The translations under genes were made by a program, and so were the position numbers. 51,464 bases of DNA from a virus. The DNA is taken from the IMG/VR virus record IMGVR_UViG_3300030110_002923, positions 1-51,464 of that record. One strand, 5' to 3'. Below are positions 2,530 to 46,603 of this stretch, in pieces; position 1 is the first letter of the stretch; each line of letters starts with the position of its first letter. Under the pieces are notes generated by a model, which was given only the letters and a program-made list of their open reading frames with translations, had not been told where the DNA came from and did not search any database.

Positions 2530-3503
2530 CGAAATGGGTCTGGAGATATTTTTGTTCTTCCCCAAAATCCTGTTGCAGGTAACCTGCTAAATAAACCTGA
2601 CATACCAGTATCTCCTGTCTCTCTTCTTGTTTGTAATATCAATCTAATTAAATCATCATGATATTTTTTTACTTCTTGTAAATTTTTAGGATTTACAGGC
2701 CCTGTTCCAAAATCTCCTAAATAAGTAGCAACAACATCATTAGGCCTACCAGGCTTAGGCATTAATCTAGCGTCAAATGCACCTTTTTGGCCATGAACCA
2801 TTCCTCTGTATTTATAATCACCTCCTAAAGCTTTGTCTGTAGCAAAAGTATTTCGATTAGGAGTAGTTCTTCTGGATATATCAAAAATTCTCATACCAGC
2901 GCTAGTATCATATACTCTAAATTTTGCTTTTTTATTATTTTTAGTATATTCAACCATATTATTAATTGCCATTCTTCTTGCTTGTTCTTTAGGACCTTTG
3001 AATACAACTTGTTCAGGAACGTGTGATTTAACGTCTTCAAAATCAATATCTATCATTGGAGTTTTTTTGAACCTTGCCCAATAAGATGGACTTGCTTTAT
3101 CATATGCTGGATTATAAAAAACACCTTTTCTTAATGCTACATTTGCAGTAGGTTGTTTTATTTGTTCTGCAGACATATCGCCTAGCTGACCCCATAAAAT
3201 TTCTGAATCTTTTTTCTTAAAAACACCCGTTTGGTCCATAAAATCAAGGTCTCTTTCTACTTTAAATGCTTGCCCTCTACTATCAACGCCTTGTACATTA
3301 AATCTTCTATTATTTTTAAATATATTTAAATTAGGATTAATGTTTGTTATTCTAGCGGCAATACCAGGGGCTGAATTCATTGCGCTTTTATTTGTAGGAT
3401 TAGCTAAAGCTCTGATTAATTTCATTCCAAGGTCACGAGTTTCAGGGTCTCGCAAAGCAGCTTTCCCTGTAATTTTAAATAAACGTATCATCCAACTTTG
3501 CAT
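2526..3503 (-). CDS. Polyvalent/ejection-associated protein, 325 aa
   Basis: This is the last gene of the minus-strand late block. Its ATG at 3503 overlaps the stop of the giant gene (TAATG). Residues about 190-270 contain F-R-V-Y-D-T-S-A-G-M-R-I-F, then D-Y-K-Y-R-G-M-V-H-G-Q, and A-R-L-M-P-K-P-G-R-P. That order (V-Y-x-T-x-x-G-x-R ... Y ... Q ... R-L-x-P-K-P-x-R) is one I associate with an uncharacterised domain found in many bacterial and phage proteins of unknown function. The N-terminus (MIRLFKITGKAAL) is amphipathic. Placement after the giant internal protein suggests a virion or co-ejected role. Confidence 0.65.
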   Translation of the reverse strand: MQSWMIRLFKITGKAALRDPETRDLGMKLIRALANPTNKSAMNSAPGIAARITNINPNLNIFKNNRRFNVQGVDSRGQAFKVERDLDFMDQTGVFKKKDSEILWGQLGDMSAEQIKQPTANVALRKGVFYNPAYDKASPSYWARFKKTPMIDIDFEDVKSHVPEQVVFKGPKEQARRMAINNMVEYTKNNKKAKFRVYDTSAGMRIFDISRRTTPNRNTFATDKALGGDYKYRGMVHGQKGAFDARLMPKPGRPNDVVATYLGDFGTGPVNPKNLQEVKKYHDDLIRLILQTRRETGDTGMSGLFSRLPATGFWGRTKISPDPFR

Positions 3504-12500: not shown

Positions 12501-13270
12501 ATAAACAATGAACCAGCCAAACCTTTTATAAATTTATCTCCAGTAGTAGTACCAGGCACCACATTACCAATTATTCTAAAAACACCACCAGCAGCAGCGC
12601 CACCCATAAAACTATGCATCATTTGGTCAACGCCATCCCACACAGAAGATACTGCACTAGCAGCTCCTAAATGAAAAGCTCCTTCCATTATATGTGCGGC
12701 TTTGTCTTTTAAAAAGAATTTAGAAGCCTCATCTGCTGCTTTCCATCTAGAATTCCTAGCTCCTTGTAAAACAGGTCTAACAATATTCTTCTTTGCAAGT
12801 TTAGTTATTTTATCAGCGGCTAGCATAGGAATAGATTTTAGTTGAGTAAGGCCAACAGCAGTTCTAGCAAGCTGACTACCACGTTGAGCAGCTTTCATTA
12901 CGCCTAATGCTTTAAGTGGAGAACTTAGTATACCTGGAACAAATCCAGCCAAATGACCTATATTTCTAGCTACTGCTTCATATTCGTTATCAGGTGGGTC
13001 TGCTATTCTTAATGTTGTAAAACCTTCTATAAAGCCACCACCAGCTTGTTGTAGTGCTTCTAATATAGAAAAGTCCCCTTCATAAAAAGGAACATTATGA
13101 TACATAGCGTGATTTCTAAGTTCGTCTAATTGTTGTTCTTGGAATCTCTGAGGAGTTCTATCATAAGCTTTTATAAGCTCACGAGTTCTTTTAGCATCGT
13201 AAGTAGGCTGCCATTGCTGTTGTTGCTGATTTACCTGTTGCTGAGGTATTTGCTGTTGTGGTATAGCCAC
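3503..13270 (-). CDS. Giant virion-type protein with two-barrel RNA polymerase signature and SLOG domain, 3255 aa
   Basis: GTG 13270 follows GGAGGA by seven bases and nearly abuts the upstream gene. Residues 4-21 are Gln-rich and about 80-260 are Gly/Ala-rich membrane-active helices. Residues about 395-590 look like a SLOG nucleotide-binding domain (S401-G-G-A-K-G-A-D, later V-K-G-G-T-G-W-A-V). Around 1103-1120 is E-D-Q-D-G-A-I-L-V, like the beta-subunit barrel (E-D-A-I-L-I); K1183 and K1187 follow. R1560-V-P leads after 39 residues to A-D1599-L-D1601-G-D1603-E, the Mg-binding DxDGD of the beta-prime barrel (R425/D460 in E. coli, spacing 35). A further S-P-L-A-R-I-M segment starts at 1685. 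A hydrophobic helix lies near 3108-3122. I infer an RNA polymerase packaged in the virion and ejected, as in crAss-like phages; the domain call is from motif, not alignment. Confidence 0.8.
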   Translation of the reverse strand: MAIPQQQIPQQQVNQQQQQWQPTYDAKRTRELIKAYDRTPQRFQEQQLDELRNHAMYHNVPFYEGDFSILEALQQAGGGFIEGFTTLRIADPPDNEYEAVARNIGHLAGFVPGILSSPLKALGVMKAAQRGSQLARTAVGLTQLKSIPMLAADKITKLAKKNIVRPVLQGARNSRWKAADEASKFFLKDKAAHIMEGAFHLGAASAVSSVWDGVDQMMHSFMGGAAAGGVFRIIGNVVPGTTTGDKFIKGLAGSLFMGLPTTARGATTPEQIYEYLAGAYFGSKEMPWFKMQAVNNMKEFRKAMRKDPKLDNERQVKDWERFEEFPEIVRKEMVELGKIEHGTRKSNLAQAELLMDLHGIKDQIPKENLTTDGYKALSAIRRGIQKRTKYKADDTLGVALSGGAKGADRLWSTVLSKKGFATIHMMPETTAHRKTIPEFFEALKKGNVKGVDRGVSSKELLEAGSALEEANRTLKRGEITKYGDWAYELIARNYFQIKGANSVYAVAELEGNKRTVKGGTGWAVQMALDKGLQEVYVYHPPEKSWFRWTPEVNRFKAINYTPKLRRNPAVIGSREIRAGSPEHKAMIAVADATFGKKKTPTKDKGLTEEETKLMHQRTLENVGELNRQIDKKKLLLKDVRADLKDASLGKVRTRELAQQEKELSKEIDDIYKDIQFKHKGLESTQYIDMTSGIIINDIDTGSTPQNNTLMKKGEMFSNNHLKELWDKDGVGQSKRNSMLDMGKVVDTIVRKYSKKGDKNVNIDQAVKVMERVFSTNNKKFELSEKGKLELRKWIREANLGKQVIKIKTTGGANEAPGFTNPNRPTTATGMSIRQVESPKILEEVYLNEGGKLEKGASKSPIVIFDTVARKSKRNFTIDVPLNRLAKHLQFNEIDPITKRRYTEEDAEKAADNIIGDIIRKVYKSDNLYPFGGQGDKGRIVFAKLHPALKGENTTGIKLQYRQLINAIRRGTKDKNILANLNSEKKRMEFWYGVKPEDFERMVVSNMRYDLSLNGYKFTPENINKIMGDGFIGSAVAFNKRHQIWMTNGYGGSKDFIKNAVDKNGKIILDDLSPRGNVKYMLVDDPLLPDALKKSVLKARSTQLGEDQDGAILVRDDYIDVINKDAGHPASGQQKSFIVDNTPEYTAKGEVNKGALLGKYMMHSVGPEATQQMKDAGVHMIVYKSAAKQTGERLIGDYNVKEGQLRTFRTEEQIEAEWDVFINNMVYSPTAKKNVRRIDIPNFDPYRSRAEFAAAKGYTYDKKTDSFKPLNVVQQGGLEFTGGKIYELNPESVKYSTSVIQDPHMEQKQVLVKQLFTNIHQFASTPIDKYTIEDIFQETIKKNFDGNEVYNKVLEEYRLTKSEDKIDFLVENLEELSTPKLIKTLKTPGAERFAELALQRMLRIVEKDIEMSFQDGETTAEQRAERIRQFTEAVSPIDRLLKNSAIVGEEANAAGETGYPAFMHKFVRDYKASVLHNYFVKSVTRPKIENSLLARMRPYDKWMQKDFKELDTNDTIFYLDDAYRNTKIRLDNGKYKELGKLWDKEQNNPDFAKYFNALVLRVPMDSISGAHKLQFKGFTGRKGHGIMLNSKTMRALGGADLDGDEAFVYLGGKNKDNSGYGMKEAWLNAIDANKNEYYNKAQTHVEDNKNAVIQHGPYKGQTFAQVLTVGAGKGNPLKESKALYYSPLARIMASQGAVKGRDMLGLAVSQSQVMKSTFNALMEADGKKDVFTVFKRGKNGGTFRVTVTPKFGKKDLAYQREMVRAQTAFASDPMDEAGLREPSHFFKTMYDSYFNVKFEKYNPKSKKYFKLDKEPKNWSQGDYYGDRSDYNKAPSLLGAFKNMNSAYFGRNWSEGRNYSMDEVNHLASDIGMLSEKQKNTILPKIVDTLEGLDWSDNLFRRVDRGAIEQTYAEINDIVTDKKGKFGNWLKDAMNRSTFTVTYNEHIKANLAHELHDPAVRRKIALRDDPASLKEFLNIVKHSVWGKEFEGYGGKEARLAKLYTYKERLSILEQMNRQAEDFLSNDVATMATIKSVKRILEKERMPIKDLKSISNAVAKFKARSYLSRKERVQLDYDAIAGTAKDKEHIEFVNALLGIKKNLQDIQGDKRSTVWDQKQLDAKIRQYKDGLKNDAQRELFDHLFIGTLDRGDMSKVNRLIKALPQKKASPVFRELMNKIIKETSRTTQSRLAFNSEEISPIAIQNHLKSMNNVFNKIWTPLDKPTFKATTMGVENVLDRNPINEQNLADDLVMSAHKGEGYAGIKKGEVNAEDKAVITEIATILKRYNNKLGNNIPDLNEQMRGISAEVDPEGMGKDLNTFTKQDFVQVRNFLREAESGTWFQNLRKNPTPDIMKRYYGMFPTTVNRELMAYDIKWLKQKQWYLTKSGRIKEGYVRRPTYFLEMLMNQAHEANSLAIGKAEVLAKDIENQFVNISELKEGNALFQIAVGQAELGMKQSIDKRRNLESDMKEHYKLNYDESRAATEKEFNWPKLKDKEFTLLNDNNKRIQATGQEIVNGNKEKSLTGIKNKVAQRFESLFPLMAGDGTSINRYKTGKYFDANKTQPRMNWKLFVEDMTKSLERGDDIPINLGIDGMRNIQRSMMYDLAKTPEQKATYKSWKIKATRPMDYTYYWPHMFFDKRTSELNVKRTLDFIRNNPNLNEKQKKSRIQSLLMRHNTITGEWEFQNIQDFDKVDVIEITEGLKDIAKKRGKATETVKWTDMNTSFGSMMQREGHVGGWSKDLSVMNAYVRNLTSTYFKQMNQIMSRKTIHDAKERMTKKFGNKLASKWEKYFKLYVQGAMGQPDVIPKKWYDDPDMKLKGTPYAWFADSTVLDRVNKVREKLGIRESDLPKELKDFTFQDIKHWSNMEAKFELASLLAHPKSAVTNIFGGSLHTIQSAGHGAFMKARDMKYLKRINPNFNSLQDVENWVVKKGVVPEFMIHELGLGQDATTKRSIESFIGELSSKINSKEPIERKEVLSLGKKYKLSDRMMSVASKFMSIPERTLRRDAFMAHYIRAWERFGGAITDPEHPFLIEMGKKGVKATQFLYEAPQRPMFARTALGKVMSRFQLYAWNSTRFRNDIIREAARYGFKPGTSAYEKFERTMTIDLLVLALGNMFMYSLFDNALPQPLSWFQDTADWLFGNERDRERAFFGVLPTAIAPLQMITPPITRFPIAGIMEWAKDDYTKFSDYQVYTMFPFGRIVRDLVQPGKGLIENPSRLLEKMAGMPLRDLQKFSTERKKKIEEGVRYNQPKVGF

Positions 13271-15529: not shown

Positions 15530-16279
15530 TTATTTCCATATCAAAACTCTTACACTTCCGTCTTGCCATTGCTCGCCATCGCAATTACTAGTAGCTGATG
15601 GCAATGGAATTGCTGCAAGAGAAGAACTGTCTCCTCCATAAAGATAAACTCTTGTATCGTCTACAAACAAACCTAAACCATCATTATAGTTATGGCCTCT
15701 TCCATTTTTTATAGGCGTAAAAAAAGTTACTGCGTTTGTAGCTTGGCCTGGTGCAAAATAGCCTATTATCATAGTAGGAAGAACTCCTAATCCATGCTCT
15801 ATTTTAAGAGGAGAATCTGCATTTGTATCATGGTCTGCTCTTGTCCATGTTTGCCAACCACTATCATAATCTGCTCTAGCCATTATAAATTTATCAGCTT
15901 TTTCATCATATATAGTTTGTTCTGCTAATTTATCACCTGTAGTAGTATCATTTGTTTCTATTTCGTCAATAGATTTATCTTGGTCTTTAAATGCAGGTTT
16001 GCTTTTAAACTTAACAGCACTATCCCCTATTACTGGAGTTTTCCAACCTTCTTCTGTTCTTATTTCAAAAGTATAGCTTTTATCTTTATTCTGAGTTATT
16101 TGAATATCACCAGTCTTTCCTTCTTCGTCTGATATTTCGGTCTCTGCTTTATTTGAAACAGATATAGTCAAATCATTTAATGCTTTTTCTATTTCTTGTA
16201 ATGACTTTTGAACATCGTCAAATGTTGATACTTTAGATAATATTCTTATTGCATTTTCGCTTTCTCGATTATTTATCAT
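15530..16279 (-). CDS. Tail fibre/appendage-like protein, 249 aa
   Basis: ATG 16279 overlaps the end of the giant tail gene (ATGA). An N-terminal coiled coil (about 1-45) is followed by a short collagen-like/fibre linker motif (G-K-T-G-D-I-Q-I-T) and a beta-rich C-terminal half with W-Q-T-W-T-R-A-D-H, H-G-L-G-V-L-P-T-M-I-I-G-Y-F-A-P-G and a final D-G-S-V-R-V-L-I-W-K. The C-terminal half is like distal receptor-contact domains of fibres. Family not firmly recognised. The coiled coil plus beta domain suggests a trimer attached to the nozzle. Confidence 0.55.
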   Translation of the reverse strand: MINNRESENAIRILSKVSTFDDVQKSLQEIEKALNDLTISVSNKAETEISDEEGKTGDIQITQNKDKSYTFEIRTEEGWKTPVIGDSAVKFKSKPAFKDQDKSIDEIETNDTTTGDKLAEQTIYDEKADKFIMARADYDSGWQTWTRADHDTNADSPLKIEHGLGVLPTMIIGYFAPGQATNAVTFFTPIKNGRGHNYNDGLGLFVDDTRVYLYGGDSSSLAAIPLPSATSNCDGEQWQDGSVRVLIWK

Positions 16280-19200
16280 TTAGTAGATTTCCTTCTATAA
16301 ATTATACCTATAGAGTCGATAGGCTTTGTCATATCTTCTAATTTAAATTGTATCCACCTGCCTTTCTTATTAGTGCTTTTAAGTCTATATTCTGAGTGAT
16401 TACCAGGTTTTGATTTGTAAGTTACATCAGAGCTAGATATATCCCCTTCACTTGTCTTAACAAGTAATCTATCGCTACTCTCTTTATAACTACCACCTAA
16501 ATTTAAATCATCTTGTATTCCATTGATTTTAACTTTATTATAAACTTTTAATATAGAATCTTCTTCCATAGTCATTTTCTTACTAAGCCAAGTATAATCT
16601 CTTTTAGTATTGCCACCTTTAAACTCGTATAATGCATTGTTTATAGGTATTAATACTGCTCCCTTGTCTGCTATTAATGGTACACCTACAGAAACATCTT
16701 CACCTACCTCCCATAAATCCCATCTATTTTTTCCTAAGTTATATGACCAGCAAAACTCTTTTTCTTTTGTTAAAGCTGTATTAGAATCATAGTCTATATG
16801 AGATACAAAGAATAAAACACTAGACGATGCAGAGTCATAAGATACATAAGGAATTTTAGAAAGCTCATTACCTACTACACTTTGCCAACTTATATCTTTA
16901 ATATTATCAGTACCGCCCCATTCATTATCTGTATCACCACCTTGTTCTATGGCTCCAGAAATCTTTTTAGGAGAGTTTCCATCATGAAAATAAGCTCCAT
17001 TTTTATCAGCAAAAAACATACCATATTCTGTTACTATAAGGCTATCTTTAGACAAACAACCTACTCCTTCGTATATGTCCTCAATGCTCATACTTCTTTG
17101 ATTTATTCTATATGTATTAACATTGTCAAACGCATACAACCTTCCACCAAAATTAACTAATGCAGTAGGCTTAGATTTTAATTGTAAAAAGTCAAATGCA
17201 TAGTCAAATACACTGAATTGCCCAGGCTTAGACCTAAATATCTGATTTTCAGCATTGTCTATATTTTCGTGAGAACAGTCTCCTGCAAATAAAAATCCAT
17301 CTATTTCTGCAGATATTCCATATTTTAATTTAATAGTATCTAAAACTTCGCTTCTACCTGTTCTTGCATTGTAACTTGCTTGTACAGGGCCTCTGTCTTC
17401 TATAGTTCTTTTATAAACTGTTCCATCATAATTCCATCCTGAAATAGTTGTGATTTGCTCTACTAATCTGAAAAAATCATTAGAATTATCTCTTCTATAC
17501 AAACATACTGCTGTTAATCTTCTGCTATAATTCAATACAGATATTTCTATGTTTAATGCTTTCCTTGTTTTATCTGTGTCTCTAAAGGACCAAGTAGAAT
17601 TTGACAAAGGACCTTCTTGATAACCGTCATACATTAAAGATATTTTATAATCATAACGATTGTTCTTTAAGAAGTAATCACCTGTCTCATCTCCTAAAGA
17701 AGGACTAGATATTTTAACAGCCGCATCTGTGCTATTAAGATATTTATTTGCTGCAGAAGCTGTATCATTATCAGTTCTAATTACATTACCTTGCGATTGT
17801 CCTGTATCCCAAGCATTAAATCCAGCTCTTATTTCAGCAGCTGCTCCAACACCAGATGTACTCATGACAATATTTTCCCATTGATTAGTAGTAACTGGAA
17901 TATCATCTGCATTATCGTCTGTTGAGTTAGCGTTTAATACATCAAACTGAACTCCTGTTACATCTTGTATTTTATAAATTCCGTCTAAAGTTCCTTCTCC
18001 AGCATTAATAGTGACTGTATCTCCATTTGCCATTAAATGATTTGCGTCTAAATAAACTCTAGCTTCTCCGCTAGAAACAGCAGCATCTATACCTGGATTT
18101 CCATCTCTTCCAACATAAGATTTTGTTTTTCTCATATCCAATCCGCCAAACGTAGATAATATTAAAGGTTGTGCTGAATCTACTTTAACAGGATTAGATA
18201 CAGAAGAATCGTTGTTTCCTAATTCTACTAAAGTCCATGTACCTGTTTCGTTAGCAGTGCCAGTATGACTAAATGTAAATTTCTTAGGGTCAGTTACAGT
18301 TACTTTAAACACATCGTTATAACTAGAACTACCACTTACTTCTATAACATCATTTGTTGATAAATTGTGTATAGCACTAGTAGTTACAGTTAGAACTGTG
18401 CCTGAGCCACTTGTACTTGCTATAGCTCCAGTACTTTTATATATAGGAGCACCTAATGTAGGGTCTGCTTTTAAAGCAACTGTATTGTCTCCATCTAAGT
18501 TAAAACTATAATCTAATTCTTTTTCTTTAAACAATCTAAGAGGAGATGTACAAGCATTTCTATGCGACCATATATAAAAGAAATCGTCATTTGCTGGAGC
18601 ATGTCCAAATGGAAAATGCACTCCTAAAAATAATGTTGTACTTACAACAGAAGATAGTATTTGTCTAGTTTGCATTGTACCTGTAACAGCGTCTACTATA
18701 GTAATCATTTGTCCAGAAAATCCATTCTCTACGCCACCCATCTCTATAAATTTATTCTTACCATGCAATTCGCATTCTGAGCCTGTAATCTCAATAACAG
18801 GGCAATTTGCTGCGTTTTTGTGTACATTAGTAGTAGTTGCTTGACTTGTTATATATGACGTTATTTTGCCTGATAATATCGGCTCAAATGAAGTATATTG
18901 CTCGTTAAACTCATTAGTAGTCAAAGTAGCACTAGAACCTCTTTTATAACTATTTTTTACTTCTTGTGATAATACATCAGGATATTCTAATGTAGGGTCA
19001 CATACATATAATCTACTTTTATTGCTTTCATCTTGAGTTTCTTCCATTGGAGAAGTAATAAATATTTTACTAGCAAATTGATTATTTACATTACCGCCTT
19101 GGTTGTTGTGAGTAGCACTACCATTTTCTACGTGATATATAGGATTAGGTCTTACAGGCGAATCTATATAAGTACCTCTACCTATTATTAAATCTTCAAA

Positions 19201-22200
19201 TGTATTTTCAGCCAAATCAAATGGTCTAATCATATAGCCAGCTCTGTAATTTAATCTTTCTACTCTATGTTTAATTGCTGACTCTGTATTACCTGAAGTA
19301 CTTAAAGTTCTATACGCTGCGTCATGTAAACTCCACCAGGTTTTAGAATAATGGCCACCACCTTGTTCTCCATCTGTAAATATTTCTCCATCTAATGGTT
19401 CTTCTTGATTAAATGCAAAATGATAATGTTGGTACTTTATTCCACTTCTAGTCCCTACTGCACCAGTTGAATCATAATAATTAAATGTAAAAGGGTATAC
19501 ATCTGCAGCTGAGCTATCTTTTGCAGCATCATATGCTGTAGTTATAATAATTTGGTCGTCATCTAATATTTGAGTAATAGTTCCAGTGCCTAAACCTCCT
19601 ATATATACTAAATCTCCAGGTTTTAATCCTTTTGTACTAGGAATTTCTACCTTTGTTCCTGAAGTAGCTGTTCCAGAAACTAATTCATGAGCATCTATAA
19701 AACTATTTTCAACTTGTATAACACCTGCTGCTGCTGATATTTTTTTATCTCCAAAATGCACATCAGAACATATAAATAAAACTTTTTCTGCTTTCATATT
19801 TTCAGGAGCTCTACCAGGAACTCCTTTAAAATAACTACTTGCTCTACCAGTAACGCAACCCCAATCTTTAACCCAAGGTATGTCAGAACCTCCTATTAAA
19901 CCTACAGCATGAGAACAGACTTGTTCATGTTCGTAGCCATATGGACCTACATTCTGAGCACTTGCATCTCCAGTATGAGTTACCGTTCCTGTCAATGATT
20001 GATTACTGCAAGTAACTAAACCTGTTCCGTCTATAACTCCATCGCAATTATTATCAGCCATTCCTACTAATCCATATTTAGCAACTCTTATAGATGCTAA
20101 CTTTCCTCCTTCTCCTTCCCAGCTAACATTGCTGCCAAAGTCATAATTAGGTGCAAGTAGATTAATGTTTGTGACTACACCTGTATCAGGATTAGTATAT
20201 GGAAAACTTCCATCTATATCTGCTTCACTTGTATAATCATCTTCACTTGTTCTGACACTATAATTGTAAAATTTTTCTCTTTTATATCCTACTGAATGAG
20301 AGCCTCCATGCCTTACTCCTCTATATAAAGAATGTTTTTGAAGTAAATCTGTGTCAAAATCCCCCATATCAGAGCCACTGTCATAGCTAGAAGAAGTAGT
20401 CCACAATCCTGGCCCACAGTGAAACATATGGTCATTTTCAAACGAACTTTTTATCCATCTAGTTCTTTTAGGAAAAGTAACTCCTGTAGGAGGAGTTCTG
20501 TCACCAAAATTTATAGTGCTTGATGCATCTGTGTTTGTACTGTTGCTTAAACCACAAAATAAAAATCTATCACCTGATGTAAAAGTTTCATCACTCGCAG
20601 GTCTAAACTGAATCCACAATCTTGTATCAAAATGGTCTAAATCTTGTTGACCTGTAGCATCATAATCAAAATCTTTTGTAGTACCTTTTGTTTCTATTAT
20701 ATCAGATATCATCCCTTTAGGAGCAATTGTAGGTGTACTTTCAGAAGCTAATGATTCATACACAGCAGTATCACCTCCAATATTTCCATTTATATTATCA
20801 TTTGACCATTTATAAGATTTGTATTCTGGAGTTATTGTTGCAATTCCTGTTAAAACTTCCTTGCTCCATTTGTTATAAGCTAATTCTATATTTACAACTC
20901 TTATTTCTCCAGATAAAGTTAAAATATATACCCTTCCCCCGCCAATACCATTAGATGTATCTTTGTTATAGCAAGTAGCTATTGATGTAGGTACATACGC
21001 TAAAGGTAGTGATTTTTCTATCATCCCCCTAACATATACTGTTGATACAGTACTAGCATCTGTATATACATCATCTGGTATAATTCTATATAAGTGAGAA
21101 TCGCCATCTCTTATTCCATAGTAATAATAAGGTCTGTAAGATATCTTATTACCAGCAGGTCCACTGCCTGGGTCTTTGTCTAAAGTATCAATTCTTTTAC
21201 ATTCAAATGAATTAGTAGCACTTGCATCAGTAATTACCCATACTCCATTTCCATCCCAACTATTATCTGTATCCAACCATTCTCTTACAACTATATTATT
21301 ACCATTTGACAAACCATGTCTAGTGTGAGTTATAGTTAGCACGTCACTAGATAAACTGCAAGTTAGATTCTCATGTTCTCCAGCTAATGCTATTTTAGAC
21401 ATTGATGTTAATCCAACACTATCATAAGAATGTACAGTGTCTTCATCTTGATATAAAACATTATCATTACTAATGCCAAATGTCTTGTGATTTAAGTAAC
21501 CTAGCCATTGTGGAGAAGTATCGTCAGAACCTGAGCCAAACCCAACATGAACTTCTCTATTCCTAGAAATAAAGCTAGCTTTTCCATCTCTAGATATAAT
21601 TTCAGAAGATGCATAAACAGATTTTTCTATATCATCTTCTATTGAAAATGGAAGAGAGTTGTTTTGGTTATAGTTCTTTATAGTTTTTAATCTTTTTTCT
21701 TTACTGTCAAATAATACTAATTCTTTATTTCCAGAGTTATCTATAACTCCCATTGACTCTACTTTAGATGAATTATTTACAACAGATATATGATTTACTT
21801 CTGATAAATCAGTTAAATCTATACCTATTTGTGTTCCATCTGCTCCTCTAGATGTGAACTCTATTGTTAAATCAGTATTTAAATCAATGTTTTTTGGCAA
21901 GATAATAGGCAGTTGAAACATTCTCCATGTTGTATCTAATCCTGAATCTGATATAGTGTCATCAGCATTAAACGCAGAATCAGTATTAGGCTTTTCTATG
22001 TCTTTAAAATTTATCCATCTATTTTCTTGCATTACATTCTGTGGGTTAGTTACATACCCCATATTAGCATCTGAACTACTTGATTTCCAATTACCACTTT
22101 TTTCTATATATCCGCCATTTATTTGTACAGAAACAGCTCCGTGTCCTACAACAGAACCATTATATAAATCTTTTGCGTGAAAGGTTAAGTTGTAAAATTG

Positions 22201-24216
22201 TCCTGATTTTAAATTGTCTTTTGATATGCTTTGACTTATTAAAGGATTAATACTTTTATGTACATCATCAGATGCGCTATGTGCTGCTATAGTACTTCCT
22301 AAAAAGCCTCTTTCTACAAATATTTTATTATTAGTCATAGATAGTACTTTCATATATTCACTATTGACTTTTAGTATATCATTAACTGCTATTTTAGATA
22401 AATCTCCTGCTGGTATAAAGTTATCATCTATTGTAACTGCTGTGCTTAAATTTAAAGTAGTATCTTTATACTCTGCTTCTATTCTTACATATGCATCATC
22501 TGTGCTAAAAGGGTAGTATGACGCTGCATTATCTGCGCCATGGTCTGCAGTAGTATCTTCCCAATAACCTCCAGTATTTACTCTTGCAATTAAACTAGTT
22601 CCTGCAGTAGTATAAAGATTGTTCATACTAGCAGATTCTCCTCCACCAGCATCTGAATAAGAATATCTTTTAGATGCCCAATTGTTGACTACATAAGACA
22701 AACCACTACCTACATTTACAGTGGGATTAACCTCGTCAGATGCGTGATGAAATGTATGATTCTTAATAAGATTAGCTTCTATGTATACTGTGTCTGCAGT
22801 TTCAGTATCATCTGTAGGAGCAGTATCTAATGTCCAAGTCCAATCAGCATTACTATCTGTTCTTTCACTCTTTAATATTTTAAATGATTTGCCATTATTA
22901 GGCTCGTCTTCACCATCTGCTCCATAATAAAAGTTTACAATATCGCCTTCGTTGAATGCAAGTGTATTACCGCCACCTAAATTATTAAACGATACAGTTT
23001 TCGCAGAATTAGAAAATGTAATAGTTTGAGTACTTGCACTAGTATCTATTACACCTAAATTCTCTTTATCATTAGCTGTACCTGCTTTGTTTATCCAGTT
23101 ACCATTACCACCTATATTATTACTAGAGTAATCGCTCCAATTGTATAAAGATACTATTGCTCTTTGAGTTCTTAATTGTCGTCCATCAATAGTTATCCTA
23201 TTAGCCCAAAGCTGGTAAGATGTTGAAGTTGTGTATGATTTTAAAGAAGTTCCAAACACATTTCTTTTTACATATATAAGTTTATTTGTTTCATCTATAC
23301 TTGTCACTTTCATAAATTCGTCTGCAGACGCATCTAGAGTTGTAGTTGGTAGGGCTAAAAAATCTCCTTCATTAACATACTCGTTTAATCCTTTTTGAAG
23401 ATAAGTCAAAGTACATATATCTGCAGCAGTACTAACAGCAATTTTTCCAGCAAATCCATTAGCATGTTCTATTCCAATTTCTATTTCAGCAGCTATTTCA
23501 TCATCTGTATCGTGACTTGTTGCAGTAGGACAAAATATTTGCACTTGGTCACTTCCGTCTACTGTGCCAGTTGTTCCAGAAGAATTTTTTATTATAAATG
23601 TTTTAGTAGTATTATCAGGAGTTGTTATAATAATAGTTTTATTTGCTAATGTAGAAGGGTCGTCTGTATCTACTTGTATAGTAGCTGTACCATCTGTAAA
23701 TCCTGATATAGTTGTATTACCTGCTGCTGCATTGCCTCCAATAGCATTAGTCTGTGTTAAATAAGGTATTGTATCTTGAGTAGCCGTAACTGCAGATGTA
23801 GGTGTAAAAGAAGCGCTTAATGAAGCTGACATTGTAATACGCTCCCACCAAGGAGATACTCCTAATATTTTCAATCTTTCTTTTCTGCCTTTGCTTCCTA
23901 TAAAAGCTAAATCCGAAGTTTCATATCCAGTATCAAATATGTTTATATCGGGCAATATAACAGAAGACCTGTTATAATTAGCACTAGCTTCATGTTGATT
24001 TGTAGAACCCCAGTTTACTGGGTATAAAGAGTTGGTCAATTTATTATCAGTAGATGCAATCATCTTGTCATTTTTAATTGCATCAAGAGTACCATTTTCT
24101 GACATAGGGTCTATATTAAGAGAAAACGAAGCTGTATCATCTGATATATCTCTTTCAGATGCATTATGTATCGTTCCTGATTGAAAAGCCTTTATCTCTT
24201 TAAGTTTTCTTGGCAT
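16276..24216 (-). CDS. Giant tail (nozzle-like) protein, 2646 aa
   Basis: ATG 24216 has AAAGGAG upstream. The N-terminus (MPRKLKEIKAFQSG, then a conserved S-L-N-I-D-P segment) and the C-terminal part (about 2300-2560: F-G-G-R-L-Y-A-F-D, M-F-F-A-D-K-N-G-A-Y-F-H-D-G-N, C-W-S-Y-N-L-G-K-N-R-W) match the beta-propeller style of podovirus tail nozzle proteins such as T7 gp12. In between are many beta-rich insertions with repeated themes such as L-T-x-T-x-x-x-H-G-L-S-x-G-N and G-D-x-V-x-I-x-G, suggesting tandem tail-type beta domains that may bind polysaccharide. It is several times the usual nozzle length. Function is inferred. Confidence 0.65.
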   Translation of the reverse strand: MPRKLKEIKAFQSGTIHNASERDISDDTASFSLNIDPMSENGTLDAIKNDKMIASTDNKLTNSLYPVNWGSTNQHEASANYNRSSVILPDINIFDTGYETSDLAFIGSKGRKERLKILGVSPWWERITMSASLSASFTPTSAVTATQDTIPYLTQTNAIGGNAAAGNTTISGFTDGTATIQVDTDDPSTLANKTIIITTPDNTTKTFIIKNSSGTTGTVDGSDQVQIFCPTATSHDTDDEIAAEIEIGIEHANGFAGKIAVSTAADICTLTYLQKGLNEYVNEGDFLALPTTTLDASADEFMKVTSIDETNKLIYVKRNVFGTSLKSYTTSTSYQLWANRITIDGRQLRTQRAIVSLYNWSDYSSNNIGGNGNWINKAGTANDKENLGVIDTSASTQTITFSNSAKTVSFNNLGGGNTLAFNEGDIVNFYYGADGEDEPNNGKSFKILKSERTDSNADWTWTLDTAPTDDTETADTVYIEANLIKNHTFHHASDEVNPTVNVGSGLSYVVNNWASKRYSYSDAGGGESASMNNLYTTAGTSLIARVNTGGYWEDTTADHGADNAASYYPFSTDDAYVRIEAEYKDTTLNLSTAVTIDDNFIPAGDLSKIAVNDILKVNSEYMKVLSMTNNKIFVERGFLGSTIAAHSASDDVHKSINPLISQSISKDNLKSGQFYNLTFHAKDLYNGSVVGHGAVSVQINGGYIEKSGNWKSSSSDANMGYVTNPQNVMQENRWINFKDIEKPNTDSAFNADDTISDSGLDTTWRMFQLPIILPKNIDLNTDLTIEFTSRGADGTQIGIDLTDLSEVNHISVVNNSSKVESMGVIDNSGNKELVLFDSKEKRLKTIKNYNQNNSLPFSIEDDIEKSVYASSEIISRDGKASFISRNREVHVGFGSGSDDTSPQWLGYLNHKTFGISNDNVLYQDEDTVHSYDSVGLTSMSKIALAGEHENLTCSLSSDVLTITHTRHGLSNGNNIVVREWLDTDNSWDGNGVWVITDASATNSFECKRIDTLDKDPGSGPAGNKISYRPYYYYGIRDGDSHLYRIIPDDVYTDASTVSTVYVRGMIEKSLPLAYVPTSIATCYNKDTSNGIGGGRVYILTLSGEIRVVNIELAYNKWSKEVLTGIATITPEYKSYKWSNDNINGNIGGDTAVYESLASESTPTIAPKGMISDIIETKGTTKDFDYDATGQQDLDHFDTRLWIQFRPASDETFTSGDRFLFCGLSNSTNTDASSTINFGDRTPPTGVTFPKRTRWIKSSFENDHMFHCGPGLWTTSSSYDSGSDMGDFDTDLLQKHSLYRGVRHGGSHSVGYKREKFYNYSVRTSEDDYTSEADIDGSFPYTNPDTGVVTNINLLAPNYDFGSNVSWEGEGGKLASIRVAKYGLVGMADNNCDGVIDGTGLVTCSNQSLTGTVTHTGDASAQNVGPYGYEHEQVCSHAVGLIGGSDIPWVKDWGCVTGRASSYFKGVPGRAPENMKAEKVLFICSDVHFGDKKISAAAGVIQVENSFIDAHELVSGTATSGTKVEIPSTKGLKPGDLVYIGGLGTGTITQILDDDQIIITTAYDAAKDSSAADVYPFTFNYYDSTGAVGTRSGIKYQHYHFAFNQEEPLDGEIFTDGEQGGGHYSKTWWSLHDAAYRTLSTSGNTESAIKHRVERLNYRAGYMIRPFDLAENTFEDLIIGRGTYIDSPVRPNPIYHVENGSATHNNQGGNVNNQFASKIFITSPMEETQDESNKSRLYVCDPTLEYPDVLSQEVKNSYKRGSSATLTTNEFNEQYTSFEPILSGKITSYITSQATTTNVHKNAANCPVIEITGSECELHGKNKFIEMGGVENGFSGQMITIVDAVTGTMQTRQILSSVVSTTLFLGVHFPFGHAPANDDFFYIWSHRNACTSPLRLFKEKELDYSFNLDGDNTVALKADPTLGAPIYKSTGAIASTSGSGTVLTVTTSAIHNLSTNDVIEVSGSSSYNDVFKVTVTDPKKFTFSHTGTANETGTWTLVELGNNDSSVSNPVKVDSAQPLILSTFGGLDMRKTKSYVGRDGNPGIDAAVSSGEARVYLDANHLMANGDTVTINAGEGTLDGIYKIQDVTGVQFDVLNANSTDDNADDIPVTTNQWENIVMSTSGVGAAAEIRAGFNAWDTGQSQGNVIRTDNDTASAANKYLNSTDAAVKISSPSLGDETGDYFLKNNRYDYKISLMYDGYQEGPLSNSTWSFRDTDKTRKALNIEISVLNYSRRLTAVCLYRRDNSNDFFRLVEQITTISGWNYDGTVYKRTIEDRGPVQASYNARTGRSEVLDTIKLKYGISAEIDGFLFAGDCSHENIDNAENQIFRSKPGQFSVFDYAFDFLQLKSKPTALVNFGGRLYAFDNVNTYRINQRSMSIEDIYEGVGCLSKDSLIVTEYGMFFADKNGAYFHDGNSPKKISGAIEQGGDTDNEWGGTDNIKDISWQSVVGNELSKIPYVSYDSASSSVLFFVSHIDYDSNTALTKEKEFCWSYNLGKNRWDLWEVGEDVSVGVPLIADKGAVLIPINNALYEFKGGNTKRDYTWLSKKMTMEEDSILKVYNKVKINGIQDDLNLGGSYKESSDRLLVKTSEGDISSSDVTYKSKPGNHSEYRLKSTNKKGRWIQFKLEDMTKPIDSIGIIYRRKSTK

Positions 24217-43088: not shown

Positions 43089-43197
43089 AATAGAATTATA
43101 CATTGAAAACATAATAAAGTGTAGAAAACAGAAAAAAGCGATATTGCAAAATAAAAAGGCTAAGGAGGCCAAAATAAAATGGCAAATGATACAATAA
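43069..43197 (+). CDS. Lys-rich small protein overlapping the Ubl gene, 42 aa
   Basis: ATG 43069 has AGAGGAGG shortly upstream. The 42-residue product begins MNFSEDKIELYIENIIK and has ten lysines, mostly in a basic helix (C-R-K-Q-K-K, then N-K-K-A-K-E-A-K). It overlaps the 90-residue gene by 20 bases and the Ubl start by 19, and carries the Ubl ribosome-binding site AAGGAGG within it. It could be an accessory or a lysine-bearing acceptor for the Ubl; that is speculation. Confidence 0.5.
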   Translation: MNFSEDKIELYIENIIKCRKQKKAILQNKKAKEAKIKWQMIQ

Positions 43198-43391
43198 CAA
43201 TCAACTTGTTACAAAACGGAGAGTTCAGTCCTAGAGATACAGCATCTACAACAGTAGGTGAGTTAAGGAACGAACTAGAAATACCAGCAGATGCAAATGT
43301 GATGGTAGGTGGAACTATCAGGCAGAACGACTTTGTTCTGGAAGATGGTGCGTTAGTTGCTTATGCAAGCAATAATAAAGTTGGTGGATAA
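43179..43391 (+). CDS. Ubiquitin-like (beta-grasp) modifier ending in Gly-Gly, 70 aa
   Basis: ATG 43179 follows AAGGAGG (43162-43168). The order of predicted elements is beta-beta-alpha-beta-beta: T-I-T-I-N-L-L, a second strand, T-V-G-E-L-R-N-E-L, V-M-V-G-G-T-I, then L-E-D-G-A-L-V-A-Y-A-S. The protein ends N-N-K-V-G-G. The V-x-G-G-x-I ... L-x-D-G-x-x-V-A-Y ... G-G ending is like MoaD/ThiS and bacterial Ubls. With Gly-Gly already at the C-terminus, no processing is needed before adenylation. It opens the Ubl-E2-JAMM-E1 run. The fold is inferred from pattern and context. Confidence 0.8.
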   Translation: MANDTITINLLQNGEFSPRDTASTTVGELRNELEIPADANVMVGGTIRQNDFVLEDGALVAYASNNKVGG

Positions 43392-43401
43392 TAGATAATA
43401 A

Positions 43402-43461
43402 TATAAAGCCCTGTGAGTCTCACGTGAGTATGGAATACGACTACCGAGCATGGGCTTTATA
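43402..43461 (+). repeat. Long inverted repeat between the Ubl and E2-like genes
   Basis: TATAAAGCCC (43402-43411) is the exact complement of GGGCTTTATA (43452-43461). The 40-base interior contains the palindrome CTCACGTGAG. It lies in the 98-base gap between the Ubl stop and the preferred start of the E2-like gene. A hairpin here could set the ratio of Ubl to E2 mRNA or translation. No T-run follows. Confidence 0.65.
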
Positions 43462-43489
43462 CGATAAAATAGATAGCGAAGGAGAATAT

Positions 43490-44956
43490 ATGATAGAAAT
43501 ATATGACGGTAGAACAGAAAGAAAAGTAAATGAAATAGATTTTATTAAGAATTTAAGTCAAGAGCAACTAAACAAAGTAGCTGTTGGCCCTCAAGATAAA
43601 TTATTAGATTTAATTAAATACTTTAATGATGTATTCAGACATCAAGGTATTGAAAGTCAAATAGATGTTACTAATAAATGGTCTTGGAAACGTGGCTCTT
43701 ATGATATTATGAAAAACTATTTAACTAATAAATTAGAATTAAACAAAAAAGCTATGTCAATGTCTAAAATAATAGAAAGAGCTCAACATAATGCTAGTTT
43801 CTTAGGTTATATGCGTAAGAAAACATATCAATTAGAATCAGAAAGACGCAAACTTATAAATATGGGTATTCCTAGAGATGTAGATACTGATAAATTTCAA
43901 AGTATGTGCATAGATATGGCAGAGAAAATAGAAAATGCTTGCAATAATGCTAATAACATTATAGAAAATGTAAACTTAAAGCCATGGATAGGTCTAAATA
44001 ACTGCGATGAAATAATACTTTATCTGGATATTATGCTAACAGGCTTGAATATGAGTATAGTTCAAGATTCAACAGTGATAGAAACTAACAAATTAAAACC
44101 AATTAGAATAATGGTAAATGTTGATTTTAGGAAACTATTAAATAATCAAAGATATGATTTGAATTTTAAAGGCAAATATATAGATGATTATCATATGTTT
44201 CCTTATTTAAATTCAGAAACTTATTATCGTAATTGGGGTAATGTATGCTTAGATAGACATCACGATGATTTTAGAAGAGCATTCAAAAAGTTAGACTTTG
44301 TTAGTATGTCAATGATATTGATACAATGGGCTCAATATTATAATGTTGGACACTCTAATCCATATAGTCAACCATTTCTTACACACTATGGTATGCCTAA
44401 AGACAAAAGTCAATCTTATAAGCAATTGTTTGTAGCTGGTACAGTTCAAAGTGCTTGCCAAACAACTCAGAAAAAGATGACTCAAGATTCTTCTGGAATA
44501 GATAGGCTTGTATCTAGCAAAAAGTTATGTCAAGATATTGAATGTCAATATATAGGTAATTGTGAATTTTACGAAATATATAATCGAAAAATAAATCTAT
44601 ATAATAAACATAGATATTTAGGCGATGCTATATATATGGAACTTGCAAATTATGTGACAAATAATGATTTTGACCAACAAACAATATCAAATATGTTTGA
44701 AACAATAACTGGACAATATATTTCTTATACCACTGATGAAGGTGTACTTTCAAAAGAAGAATATCTAAATAGTTGGTATGATAAGTTTATGATATATTTT
44801 GCAACAACATACGAAAAAAACGCTAATGCTTATTTATATGATTATTTAGTAAATAATGGATTGTTAGAGAAAGCAGAAATAAAAACAGAGAATATAGACA
44901 CAGATAATATAAAACAGCAAATGATGGCTTGGGCAGCATCAGAAGGAGTAAGGTAA
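43490..44956 (+). CDS. E2 ubiquitin-conjugating-like protein, 488 aa
   Basis: ATG 43490 has GAAGGAG five bases upstream and is preferred over GTG 43424, which lies inside the inverted repeat. Residues about 195-290 resemble the E2 core: a beta section (R-I-M-V-N-V-D-F, Y-D-L-N-F-K-G-K-Y), H-M-F-P-Y, then R-N-W-G-N-V-C253-L-D, a spacer and a hydrophobic helix ending N-V-G-H-S-N-P-Y-S. This parallels F/Y-P ... G-x-x-C-L-D ... helix ... P-N in E2 enzymes, making Cys253 the candidate thioester residue. The N-terminal about 190 residues are helical and the C-terminal part has a Cys cluster (C-Q-D-I-E-C-Q-Y-I-G-N-C). Its stop overlaps the JAMM start. The call rests on motif and operon context. Confidence 0.68.
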   Translation: MIEIYDGRTERKVNEIDFIKNLSQEQLNKVAVGPQDKLLDLIKYFNDVFRHQGIESQIDVTNKWSWKRGSYDIMKNYLTNKLELNKKAMSMSKIIERAQHNASFLGYMRKKTYQLESERRKLINMGIPRDVDTDKFQSMCIDMAEKIENACNNANNIIENVNLKPWIGLNNCDEIILYLDIMLTGLNMSIVQDSTVIETNKLKPIRIMVNVDFRKLLNNQRYDLNFKGKYIDDYHMFPYLNSETYYRNWGNVCLDRHHDDFRRAFKKLDFVSMSMILIQWAQYYNVGHSNPYSQPFLTHYGMPKDKSQSYKQLFVAGTVQSACQTTQKKMTQDSSGIDRLVSSKKLCQDIECQYIGNCEFYEIYNRKINLYNKHRYLGDAIYMELANYVTNNDFDQQTISNMFETITGQYISYTTDEGVLSKEEYLNSWYDKFMIYFATTYEKNANAYLYDYLVNNGLLEKAEIKTENIDTDNIKQQMMAWAASEGVR

Positions 44957-45894
44957 TGAAGTTAGAAGAAGTGTTTTACATAAAAGAAAAAGACTGGTAT
45001 CAGTTACAAGGTTGGGCTACAATAGCTTATGAAGAAGATAAAAACGAAATATCTGGATTAATGACAGCAGTACCACAAGAAGACGGCAGATTCAAATTAG
45101 GAGATGTAAGGATTCTTAAACAAAAGAACTCTGGTACTAATACTGAATTAGATGCAGATGCTGTTGCTGAATATACTATGAAGTTTGGTATGAAGTATAA
45201 TAATCCAAATATGAAGTTTGTTTGGTGGCATTCACATCATACTATGGGAGCATTCTGGTCAGGAACTGATGAAAATGAGATAGATGAATGGAAGAACAAT
45301 AGTTTTTCTTTGGCTTTAGTTATAAATCTTAAGGAGGAGTATAAATTCAGAGTTAGTGTATGGAATAACAATGGATTGCCAATAGAAGAACATTTTGATA
45401 CCACTCTTACTATTGAAAGACCTCAGCCTAAAGTTAAAATAACAGATGCTATGAAAGTAGAGTATGAAAATCTTTGTTCTAATCTTCATCAAACTGTTGT
45501 TGGAAATGCAAATATATGGGGAGGTCATTGGGGTTATAACAGAATTAACACAAACCCTAGACAGCTAACATTAGGACAAGACAAAGAGTTAGAATATGAA
45601 AAAGCATATGCAAAAGCTTATGAATTATTAGAGTCAATGCAAGATGATTTCATAAACGGAACTCTTAAATTAAAAGAATACAAAAAAGAAATAAAATCTT
45701 TTAATAAAGAATGTTCTAATAGAAAATACCCATTTAAAGCTAAAGTTATAAAAGGTAATAGTACTGCAATAATGAATAAGCTTATGACTTTAATGCCAAA
45801 CGAATTGTTCGAATGGGATGATAATAGGATAAAAGATAAGTATGAAGAACGTGAATTTCAAAGAAACTATGGAGGATATGCAGAATGGCTATAA
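44956..45894 (+). CDS. JAB/JAMM metallopeptidase (deubiquitinase-like), 312 aa
   Basis: ATG 44956 overlaps the previous stop (TAATG) and has GAAGGAG upstream. The JAMM metal and catalytic residues are all present: E31 in N-E-I-S-G, then W-W-H92-S-H94, seven residues, S102-G-T-D105. This is the exact H-x-H-x7-S-x-x-D zinc site of deubiquitinating JAMM enzymes. The roughly 180-residue C-terminal extension is unrecognised and helical. Since the Ubl already has a free Gly-Gly, the likely job is removing Ubl from targets rather than maturing it. It overlaps the E1-like gene by 10 bases. Confidence 0.9.
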   Translation: MKLEEVFYIKEKDWYQLQGWATIAYEEDKNEISGLMTAVPQEDGRFKLGDVRILKQKNSGTNTELDADAVAEYTMKFGMKYNNPNMKFVWWHSHHTMGAFWSGTDENEIDEWKNNSFSLALVINLKEEYKFRVSVWNNNGLPIEEHFDTTLTIERPQPKVKITDAMKVEYENLCSNLHQTVVGNANIWGGHWGYNRINTNPRQLTLGQDKELEYEKAYAKAYELLESMQDDFINGTLKLKEYKKEIKSFNKECSNRKYPFKAKVIKGNSTAIMNKLMTLMPNELFEWDDNRIKDKYEEREFQRNYGGYAEWL

Positions 45895-46553
45895 ATATGA
45901 GAAGTAGAGGACTTGTAGATAACTTAAACAAATTCAACTTTCATATATTGGGTTGCGGTGCTATAGGTAGTGCCGCAGCTATCCAATTATGTAGGATGGG
46001 TGCAACTAATTTTGCTTTATATGATAATGACAAAGTAGATACAGCTAACATAGGCGTATCACAGTACACAATGTACGATGTAGATTATCCTAAAGTAGAT
46101 ATGTTACACGGAAAGTTAAAAGATATAAGTATTGATTTAAAAGTTCAATGTGTTGATGAAAAGTTTATCAATTATATACATATGAACAATGATGACATAA
46201 TTATATTAGGTTTTGACAGTATGCAATCTAGAATGGATGCAGTAAAAGCTATAAACAACTGGCAAGGATGTAAACCATATGCTTTAATAGATGGTCGTAT
46301 GGGTGCAGAACATTATCAACAATATGTTCTATTAAGACCTACGTTAAAAGACTATAAAAAGATATGGTATTCTGACGAGAATGGCAGTGAAGAACCTTGC
46401 AATATGAAAGCTACTAGTTATTGTAGTAATATGAGTGGTAGTTTTATAGCAAATGCAGTAAGAAAAATAGTCAAAGAACAACCTTACGAGGATTTTGTCT
46501 CTTTTCATTTTCCTACTATGTCGATAGAAAAAAATAGTTGTATATTTAAATAA
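45885..46553 (+). CDS. E1/ThiF-like adenylating enzyme, 222 aa
   Basis: ATG 45885 has GGAGGA eight bases upstream. The Rossmann ATP-binding loop is I-L-G23-C-G-A-I-G28-S, followed by L-Y-D47-N-D49-K-V-D-T-A-N-I-G-V-S-Q, the E1/ThiF D-x-D ... N-x-x-x-x-Q pattern. Later, G-F-D-S-M-Q-S-R and C172-N-M-K-A-T-S-Y-C180 give two candidate thioester cysteines in the usual region. The protein is just an adenylation domain, like bacterial E1s. It is the last gene of the cassette and is followed by a GNRA hairpin. Confidence 0.88.
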   Translation: MAINMRSRGLVDNLNKFNFHILGCGAIGSAAAIQLCRMGATNFALYDNDKVDTANIGVSQYTMYDVDYPKVDMLHGKLKDISIDLKVQCVDEKFINYIHMNNDDIIILGFDSMQSRMDAVKAINNWQGCKPYALIDGRMGAEHYQQYVLLRPTLKDYKKIWYSDENGSEEPCNMKATSYCSNMSGSFIANAVRKIVKEQPYEDFVSFHFPTMSIEKNSCIFK

Positions 46554-46571: not shown

Positions 46572-46603
46572 GCTTGAGGGAGTTAGCAATAACTCTCTTG
46601 AGC
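46572..46603 (+). promoter_or_regulatory. 14-bp hairpin with GCAA tetraloop after the E1-like gene
   Basis: GCTTGAGGGAGTTA (46572-46585) pairs over its whole length, with three G-U pairs, to TAACTCTCTTGAGC (46590-46603) around a GCAA (GNRA) loop. It is 19 bases downstream of the E1-like stop and about 30 before the next start. What follows is CCTTTCG, not a U-tract, so it is more likely an mRNA stabiliser, processing site or partial terminator than a classic intrinsic terminator. Confidence 0.65.

Follow-up and report, generated by a model that had tools for sequence, protein, structure and literature searches.

Among the closest described systems is Bil, an anti-phage, ISG15-like operon (bilABCD) that encodes a ubiquitin-like protein (Ubl), an E2, a JAMM peptidase, and an E1 (PMC11354881). 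A second is the PRTRC set, class 6d of Iyer et al., which, in their 2006 survey, comprises a Ubl, a JAB protein, an E1, an E2, and an alpha-helical protein (PMC1779556). That survey also records Ubl and JAB proteins in phages, namely, TAPI (Ubl) and TAPK (JAB plus NlpC/P60) of lambda and T1 (PMC1779556). Here, a viral DNA stretch of 51,464 nt, referred to in full as the window, was found to contain a four-gene set at positions 43179 to 46553 that encodes, in this order, a Ubl, an E2-like protein, a JAMM peptidase, and an E1-like enzyme. The host of the virus is a bacterium. A phage cassette with this order was not found described in the largely open-access literature covered, which included the 2006 survey, a jumbo-phage survey, and crAss papers. 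The parts themselves are known from the bacterial Bil and PRTRC/class 6d systems, but each of these two has defining features that this locus lacks. We consider it likely that the cassette provides a complete, reversible, and phage-owned Ubl conjugation pathway that works without an E3 and in which a fast-evolving E2 chooses the target.

All four genes lie on the plus strand. Open reading frames, profile matches, and structure models agree with the four parts and the single cassette proposed in the initial annotation. That all four genes overlap is correct for the E2 and JAMM genes (1 base) and for the JAMM and E1 genes (10 bases), whereas the Ubl and E2 genes are separated by a short gap. Directly 3' of the cassette, a 14-bp hairpin (positions 46572 to 46603, plus strand) could mark a transcript end or a processing site. 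Stable hairpins of differing sequence are present at the equivalent site in five related loci, one of them with a T run; the tail of the window hairpin itself is not T-rich. The order Ubl-E2-JAMM-E1 is fixed across the loci of the relatives, and an apparent loss of the Ubl from some of them was rejected, as the gene was found one or two genes further upstream. The cassette adjoins Sak4 and primase-helicase genes, with the virion genes encoded on the other strand, in line with the initial view that it is not next to tail genes. A lambda-type tail Ubl/JAB reading was rejected on this basis, the neighbors not being a TAPJ/TAPK tail module; in further contrast to lambda and T1, the window also encodes an E1 and an E2 and gave no NlpC/P60 match.

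The Ubl (positions 43179 to 43391) is 70 amino acids long, and its translation ends in SNNKVGG immediately before the stop codon, which agrees with the bare C-terminal Gly-Gly noted initially. Searched as single sequences, neither the Ubl nor the E2-like protein had a relevant match in Pfam, PHROGs, NCBIfam, or PADLOC, and comparison of the two families with PADLOC (the 2023 library, which may be without Bil models) likewise gave nothing relevant. Pfam ThiS was matched by 10 of 36 Ubl homologues (best, 5e-5), and K67, G69, and G70 are invariant among these homologues. The AlphaFold model (mean pLDDT, 80.7) has the order E-E-H-E-E-E followed by a floppy tail and resembles Mth1743 (1ryj; Foldseek, 4e-4), the Caldiarchaeum ubiquitin (Foldseek, 1e-3), and ThiS (2lek; VIA Z score of 8.1, 61 residues aligned, rmsd of 2.9). 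The initial annotation had named structure prediction as a check on the beta-grasp assignment, and the model has the ubiquitin/ThiS fold. As modeled, the Ubl is a ubiquitin/ThiS-like beta-grasp modifier with a C-terminal Gly.

The E2-like protein (positions 43490 to 44956) has 488 amino acids when translated from the ATG at 43490, which is preceded by AAGGAG; a GTG at 43424 is a possible alternative start and would give 510 amino acids. The E2-type site reported initially is present as WGNVC253LD. The structure model (pLDDT, 88.4) contains a UBC core at about residues 133 to 300 and places Cys253 in the E2 active site, as the initial annotation had anticipated for the 488-residue protein. All 50 of the 50 VIA-align matches listed for this model are E2 enzymes, the best one listed having a Z score of 7.4 (128 residues aligned, rmsd of 3.3), which is in a range that a common structural arrangement can also produce. 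Foldseek with the whole model gave nothing significant (best E value of 0.4; the sixth-ranked match, with an E value of 0.9, was a UEV E2-like domain), and the E2 profile found nothing relevant among PDB sequences. P238, Y239, and C253 are present in 38 of 38 relatives. In a profile alignment with manually entered reference E2 sequences, C253 falls on what we take to be Cys85 of UBE2D2 (score of 23.4, compared to at most 16.5 for 40 column shuffles). The protein thus has, at the level of the model, a UBC fold with a candidate catalytic Cys253.

The presence of this protein bears on whether the Ubl might instead be a sulfur carrier of the ThiS/MoaD type that serves tRNA thiolation or a cofactor, with the JAMM protein as an accessory. 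In profile searches, the Ubl is closest to ThiS/MoaD proteins, which also rank among its nearest structural matches, and the 2006 survey describes bacterial sulfur operons with a Ubl, an E1, and a JAMM protein but no E2 (PMC1779556). However, such sets, which often include a rhodanese, need no E2, while a UBC-fold protein with an invariant Cys lies between the Ubl and JAMM genes throughout the main branch, and no cassette gene matches a rhodanese domain. A ThiS/MoaD sulfur-carrier set was therefore rejected, the E2 being present and the rhodanese match absent, and a sulfur-carrier function seems improbable.

The JAMM/JAB metallopeptidase (positions 44956 to 45894; ATG start, 312 amino acids) contains the exact motif H92-S-H94-x7-S102-x2-D105, which the initial annotation had called perfect, together with a candidate Glu31, and H92, H94, S102, D105, and E31 are invariant in 52 homologues. 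It matches Pfam Prok-JAB at 5.9e-4, below the curated cutoff, and the best PDB match of its profile is RPN11 (about 0.0015). From its sequence, the protein is predicted to be a deconjugase and a Ubl-maturation protease, the latter role being probable because 15 of 49 distinct Ubls carry 1 to 60 residues beyond Gly-Gly; in one relative, for example, AQI follows DKTGG. The E1-like enzyme (positions 45885 to 46553; 222 amino acids) matches Pfam ThiF at 4.4e-17, as expected for the adenylation domain assigned initially, and its profile matches MccB, UBA5, and ThiF structures at 5e-10 to 2e-7. Residues G23, G25, G28, D47, D49, N55, K70, D111, R116, C172, and K175 are invariant in 45 homologues; C172 is the candidate thioester cysteine, and a candidate Arg finger is located near R6/R8. 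The enzyme has no separate Cys domain and lacks the Arg of the NxxRQ motif. Judged by these residues, it is a putative E1 equipped for adenylation and with a candidate thioester Cys.

Host Ubl-based systems are known to defend against phages (PMC10097602, PMC11354881), and the cassette proteins might serve to jam such systems (CBASS, Bil, or Bub) without any chemistry of their own. A decoy would not need catalytic residues, yet these are invariant and under purifying selection, and the motifs of the E1 and JAMM proteins are retained even where identity has fallen to about 24%. We regard such antagonism as very unlikely. It is possible that the JAMM protein alone acts against host conjugates.

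The locus resembles Bil in having the same four parts in the order implied by the names A to D, and JAMM cleavage of a Ubl precursor, as in Bil, is suggested for part of the window's relatives. However, BilA has two Ubl domains, whereas the Ubl of the window and its relatives is a single domain of about 70 amino acids, and BilD combines inactive and active adenylation domains with a Cys domain, whereas the E1 of the window is a single ThiF domain. The CEHH residues of BilB are Cys138, Glu144, His146, and His151 (the last three at +6, +8, and +13); the corresponding residues of the window are C253, D259, F261, and K266, and both His positions are thus absent. At +6, 37 of 38 relatives carry D or E. 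Bil is a bacterial defense locus, in contrast to the phage-borne cassette beside replication genes described here. Bil and Bub proteins are not named among the structural matches listed, which is no evidence of a difference. As in the PRTRC/class 6d set, a small Ubl, a JAB protein, an E1, and an E2 are each encoded by a separate gene (PMC1779556). PRTRC_A is the most common NCBIfam match of the JAMM family (50 of 52 members; best, 0.0019), and the E1 matches PRTRC_ThiF at 1.2e-5, but both are far under the curated cutoffs (15.7 versus 101.8 bits and 24.8 versus 144.75 bits, respectively). The class 6d E2 lacks the classical His and has an invariant downstream His, whereas the E2 alignment of the window family contains no invariant His (position 237 is His in 21 of 38 relatives). 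A PRTRC/class 6d cassette also contains a ParB-related gene; a ParB-like gene lies just upstream of the Ubl gene in a single relative, and none was recognized among those neighbors of the window cassette that were profiled. With regard to type II CBASS (Cap2/Cap3) and 6A-MBL systems, part of the E1 can be aligned with Cap2-type E1-E2 models (5e-15), and the JAMM protein matches JAB models weakly. A type II CBASS reading was rejected: in the window, the E1 and E2 are encoded by separate genes rather than as a fusion, a Ubl is present, and no CD-NTase was recognized in the flanking genes that were scanned.

A scan of viral contigs yielded 389 relatives of the E1, and the four-part set recurs in unchanged order in hundreds of related contigs. 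Of 13 TerL-selected contigs with a length of 45 kb or more, 12 carry the E1; the 13th was rejected as a case of cassette loss, since it ends before the locus. A genome collection gave only two matches, both weak and both in Bradyrhizobium, and the ThiF relatives found on plasmids were all distant (best, 1e-4). Within a large phage lineage, the cassette is a core module, even between branches with TerL proteins only about 30% identical. Purifying selection acts on each of the four genes, with dN/dS values between the window and its twin of 0.08 (Ubl), 0.09 (E1), 0.17 (JAMM), and 0.39 (E2), and the E2 gene evolves fastest, its parts flanking the core reaching 0.40 to 0.47. In one relative, identity is only 32% for the E2, compared to 76% for the E1 and 81% for the Ubl. 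In two contigs with TerL proteins 74 to 76% identical, the cassette found at this locus is strongly divergent. This pattern is consistent with tagging of a host protein (a defense protein, RNA polymerase, or a nuclease) that disables it or alters its fate: the E2, as the sole part likely to pick the target, diverges most, and the divergent cassette at an unchanged locus fits a change of target. Core status across distant branches would suit a housekeeping role equally well, however, and we hold this function to be plausible at somewhat less than even chances.

The order Ubl-E2-JAMM-E1 also occurs in crAss001 (Gp79 to Gp76), DAC15, Dulem virus 41, and the Flavobacterium phage Fpv3. Crassvirales are the crAss-like phages found in the human gut. 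In crAss001 and Fpv1 to Fpv4, a Ubl-like protein, a protein at the E2 position, a JAMM protein, and an E1 are encoded in a replication/recombination neighborhood, and the E1 and JAMM proteins can be aligned with those of the window, sharing the motifs HSH..M..F.SG.D and IDGR...C..K.T. In contrast to the window, their Ubl-like protein is longer and extends past KSG(A/G); profile comparison of the Ubls gave a weak match (probability of 9.8%, E value of 0.003), and that of the window E2 with the E2-position proteins gave no similarity. These cassettes adjoin primase, UDG, and exonuclease genes, which, together with Sak4 and primase-helicase in the window, could indicate that the phage tags replication, recombination, or virion proteins of its own with the Ubl to affect timing, assembly, or localization. 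Retention in every informative TerL-selected genome is in keeping with such a role. On the other hand, gene neighborhood may reflect only shared timing, and a substrate of the phage's own would be more apt to favor a conserved E2, whereas the E2 is the part that diverges fastest; we consider self-modification rather unlikely. On balance, we lean toward Ubl conjugation being a core, virus-owned infection step in several unrelated tailed-phage groups (the window lineage, Crassvirales, and Flavobacterium phages), with the whole of ubiquitylation encoded by the virus and targets changing through E2 divergence and whole-cassette exchange.

For the conjugation pathway that we favor, the steps that we infer (adenylation, thioester formation, conjugation, and JAMM action) would proceed as follows. 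The JAMM protein would trim the Ubl to Gly-Gly where a tail follows, the Ubl of the window being already mature. The E1, which is of the ThiF type and probably homodimeric, as are ThiF, MoeB, and UBA5, would adenylate Gly70 with ATP and form a Ubl thioester on Cys172, from which the Ubl would pass to Cys253 of the E2. Bound to its target through its fast-evolving N- and C-terminal parts, the E2 would join the Ubl to a lysine or the N terminus without a separate E3, and the JAMM protein would later take the tag off. Neither an E3 nor a target was found. The divergence of the E2, which far outpaces that of the E1 and the neighboring genes, slightly favors a host protein as the target over a replication or virion protein of the phage.

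In summary, bacterial Ubl conjugation has so far been described mainly as a host defense or as an unexplained operon type, and a complete set as a phage core module suggests that protein tagging may serve viruses as a routine tool during replication. This work also provides hypotheses for the function of four genes of crAss-like phages; in these and the Flavobacterium phages, current annotations go no further than hypothetical protein, metalloprotease, or thiamine biosynthesis protein. Since crAss001 and the phages of Flavobacterium psychrophilum are cultured and carry an equivalent set, the proposed pathway is directly testable.

The four genes of the cassette lie on the + strand of the window, which spans the complete virus record of 51,464 bases, and begin at 43179 with the Ubl gene (70 aa, C terminus ...YASNNKVGG). 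It is followed by the E2-like gene (488 aa), which starts at ATG 43490 with AAGGAG upstream (an alternative GTG at 43424 would give 510 aa), the JAMM gene (312 aa, ATG 44956), and the E1-like gene (222 aa, 45885 to 46553), with which the cassette ends. The initial annotation described four overlapping genes; this holds for E2/JAMM (1 base) and JAMM/E1 (10 bases) but not for the Ubl gene, which is set apart from the E2 gene by a short gap. Small genes are found on the 5' side, and genes for a Sak4-like ATPase, a 203-aa protein, a DnaB-like helicase/primase, and an HNH endonuclease follow in this order on the 3' side. The terminase, portal, and head genes are located on the opposite strand. The cassette lies beside replication genes and not beside tail genes, as first claimed. 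A strong hairpin is present just after the cassette (46572-46603), and relatives have hairpins of other sequence there, one with a T run. Two giant late-gene proteins are encoded on the - strand, one of 3255 aa (3503-13270) and one of 2646 aa (16276-24216), the latter with no matches among PDB sequences.

The AlphaFold model of the 70-aa protein (pLDDT 80.7) shows the beta-grasp succession of strands, helix, and strands, along with a floppy tail. Its best Foldseek match is Mth1743 (4e-4), with Caldiarchaeum ubiquitin at 1e-3; VIA aligned it with ThiS (Z 8.1, 61 residues, 2.9 A), and 10 of 36 Ubl relatives match Pfam ThiS. By its predicted structure, the protein is thus of ubiquitin-like fold, as first proposed. 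While 34 of 49 distinct Ubls end exactly at Gly-Gly, the remaining 15 carry 1 to 60 further residues (for instance, DKTGG-AQI, DKTGG-IV, and KVGG-QA) and hence would need a protease before activation, for which the adjoining JAMM is the obvious candidate.

The other three assignments of the initial annotation were also borne out. With a Pfam match at 4.4e-17, the 222-aa protein is a ThiF/E1 adenylating domain, and its profile matches solved structures of MccB, UBA5, and ThiF; the usual Arg of NxxRQ is missing, and an N-terminal Arg is kept. ThiF, MoeB, and UBA5 work as homodimers, and by analogy the E1, a single ThiF domain, would do likewise. The 312-aa protein matches Pfam Prok-JAB below the Pfam cut-off (5.9e-4). 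A profile of 52 relatives, in which E31, H92, H94, S102, and D105 are invariant, has RPN11 deubiquitinases as its best solved matches (about 0.0015), and on this sequence evidence the protein is a JAMM peptidase. In the E2 model (pLDDT 88.4), residues about 133-300 match E2 enzymes, which account for 50/50 of the VIA matches listed (best Z 7.4, 128 aligned, 3.3 A). Since Foldseek alone gave no significant match for this model, the assignment rests on the VIA result, the motif [HFY]PY...GxVC253LD ahead of a helix, the presence of C253 in 38/38 relatives, and a profile alignment to human E2 sequences that places C253 on UBE2D2 Cys85 (score 23.4 versus <=16.5 in 40 column shuffles). The C-terminal part contains Cys347, Cys352, and Cys358 (44528-44563), a possible metal or disulfide site; C352 is invariant, and the other two positions are Cys in 29/38.

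An E1 profile scan of viral contigs yielded 389 relatives, 80 of which were kept; together with a few loci retrieved otherwise, the cr106_1 and Fpv3 records among them, these gave 66 non-redundant loci. Recognizable E2, JAMM, and E1 genes occur in this order at 48 of them, the remainder being mostly cut by contig ends or having a divergent E2. The Ubl gene lies directly 5' or, in a divergent branch, 1-2 genes further upstream. At one locus (L067), a ParB-like gene (3052-3735) directly 5' of Ubl recalls the ParB-related part of PRTRC cassettes.

Among 13 contigs of at least 45 kb chosen by TerL independently of the cassette, E1 was present in 12, the thirteenth ending before the locus; profiles matched E2 in 10, Ubl in 10, and JAMM in 11. 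In a branch with TerL only about 30% identical, E1 is still 57-59% identical and primase 27-30%; Sak4 was not found in the available stretches. Two contigs (G014 and G015) have TerL 74-76% and flanking Sak4 65-67% identical; their E1 is 24-25% identical, JAMM is only weakly similar (best 3e-7, G015), and Ubl and E2 are unrecognizable. G015 (L207 1672-5035) has a small Ubl-like gene of its own, whose product terminates in SNKSG-IVA, and its E2-position protein carries HPHI...PCLG. In these two contigs, the whole cassette has therefore either been exchanged or diverged as one unit.

A tblastn search with E1 retrieved 80 phage records from Flavobacterium psychrophilum phages, Bacteroides crAss-like phages, uncultured gut phages, Xanthomonas jumbo phages, and a few others. 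Fpv3, crAss001, DAC15, and Dulem virus 41 show the same gene order, with Ubl-like, E2-position protein, JAMM, and ThiF genes (L121:1732-6142, crAss001 Gp79-Gp76; L123; L124; L006:1595-5606), adjoining UDG, primase, and exonuclease genes. These genes are annotated as hypothetical, metalloprotease, or thiamine biosynthesis. By sequence, their E1 and JAMM are clearly related to those of the window. In the Ubl-like proteins, a beta-grasp-looking start up to KSG(A/G) or a similar ending is followed by a long extension. An invariant HSH...C-x-G is common to the E2-position proteins, which have no profile similarity to the window E2 and are guessed to be E2s from position and motif. In Xanthomonas jumbo phage PhiXhv-16 (L122:2738-6112), a related ThiF has a Cys-rich protein of 892 aa as its neighbor, and no adjacent gene is annotated as a JAMM.

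The Bil operon has the four parts and their order in common with the window cassette, which in turn has no counterpart of the two-domain Ubl, the large E1, or the CEHH motif of Bil (PMC11354881). PRTRC/Iyer class 6d operons contain the same parts, also in separate genes (PMC1779556), but the window cassette falls short of the curated cut-offs and lacks the downstream His. By analogy, the cassette may work like these systems, a likeness short of demonstrated membership. In the literature examined, phage Ubl and JAB occur together only in lambda-type tail modules (PMC1779556). A search of the open literature, including crAss papers and a jumbo-phage survey, turned up no account of a Ubl-E2-JAMM-E1 set in a phage, and within that literature the set provisionally appears new.

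Comparison of the window with its nearest twin gave dN/dS values of 0.08 (Ubl), 0.09 (E1), 0.17 (JAMM), and 0.39 (E2; UBC core 0.29, flanks 0.40-0.47); in the relative L020, E2 is 32%, E1 76%, and Ubl 81% identical. Such fast E2 divergence is what would be expected, though it is not proof, if E2 chooses the target. Judging from folds, motifs, and gene order, it is most likely that the Ubl would be matured by JAMM where a tail requires it, adenylated, bound as a thioester to E1 Cys172, and transferred to E2 Cys253, and that it would then be attached to a target held by the variable parts of E2, with JAMM removing the tag.
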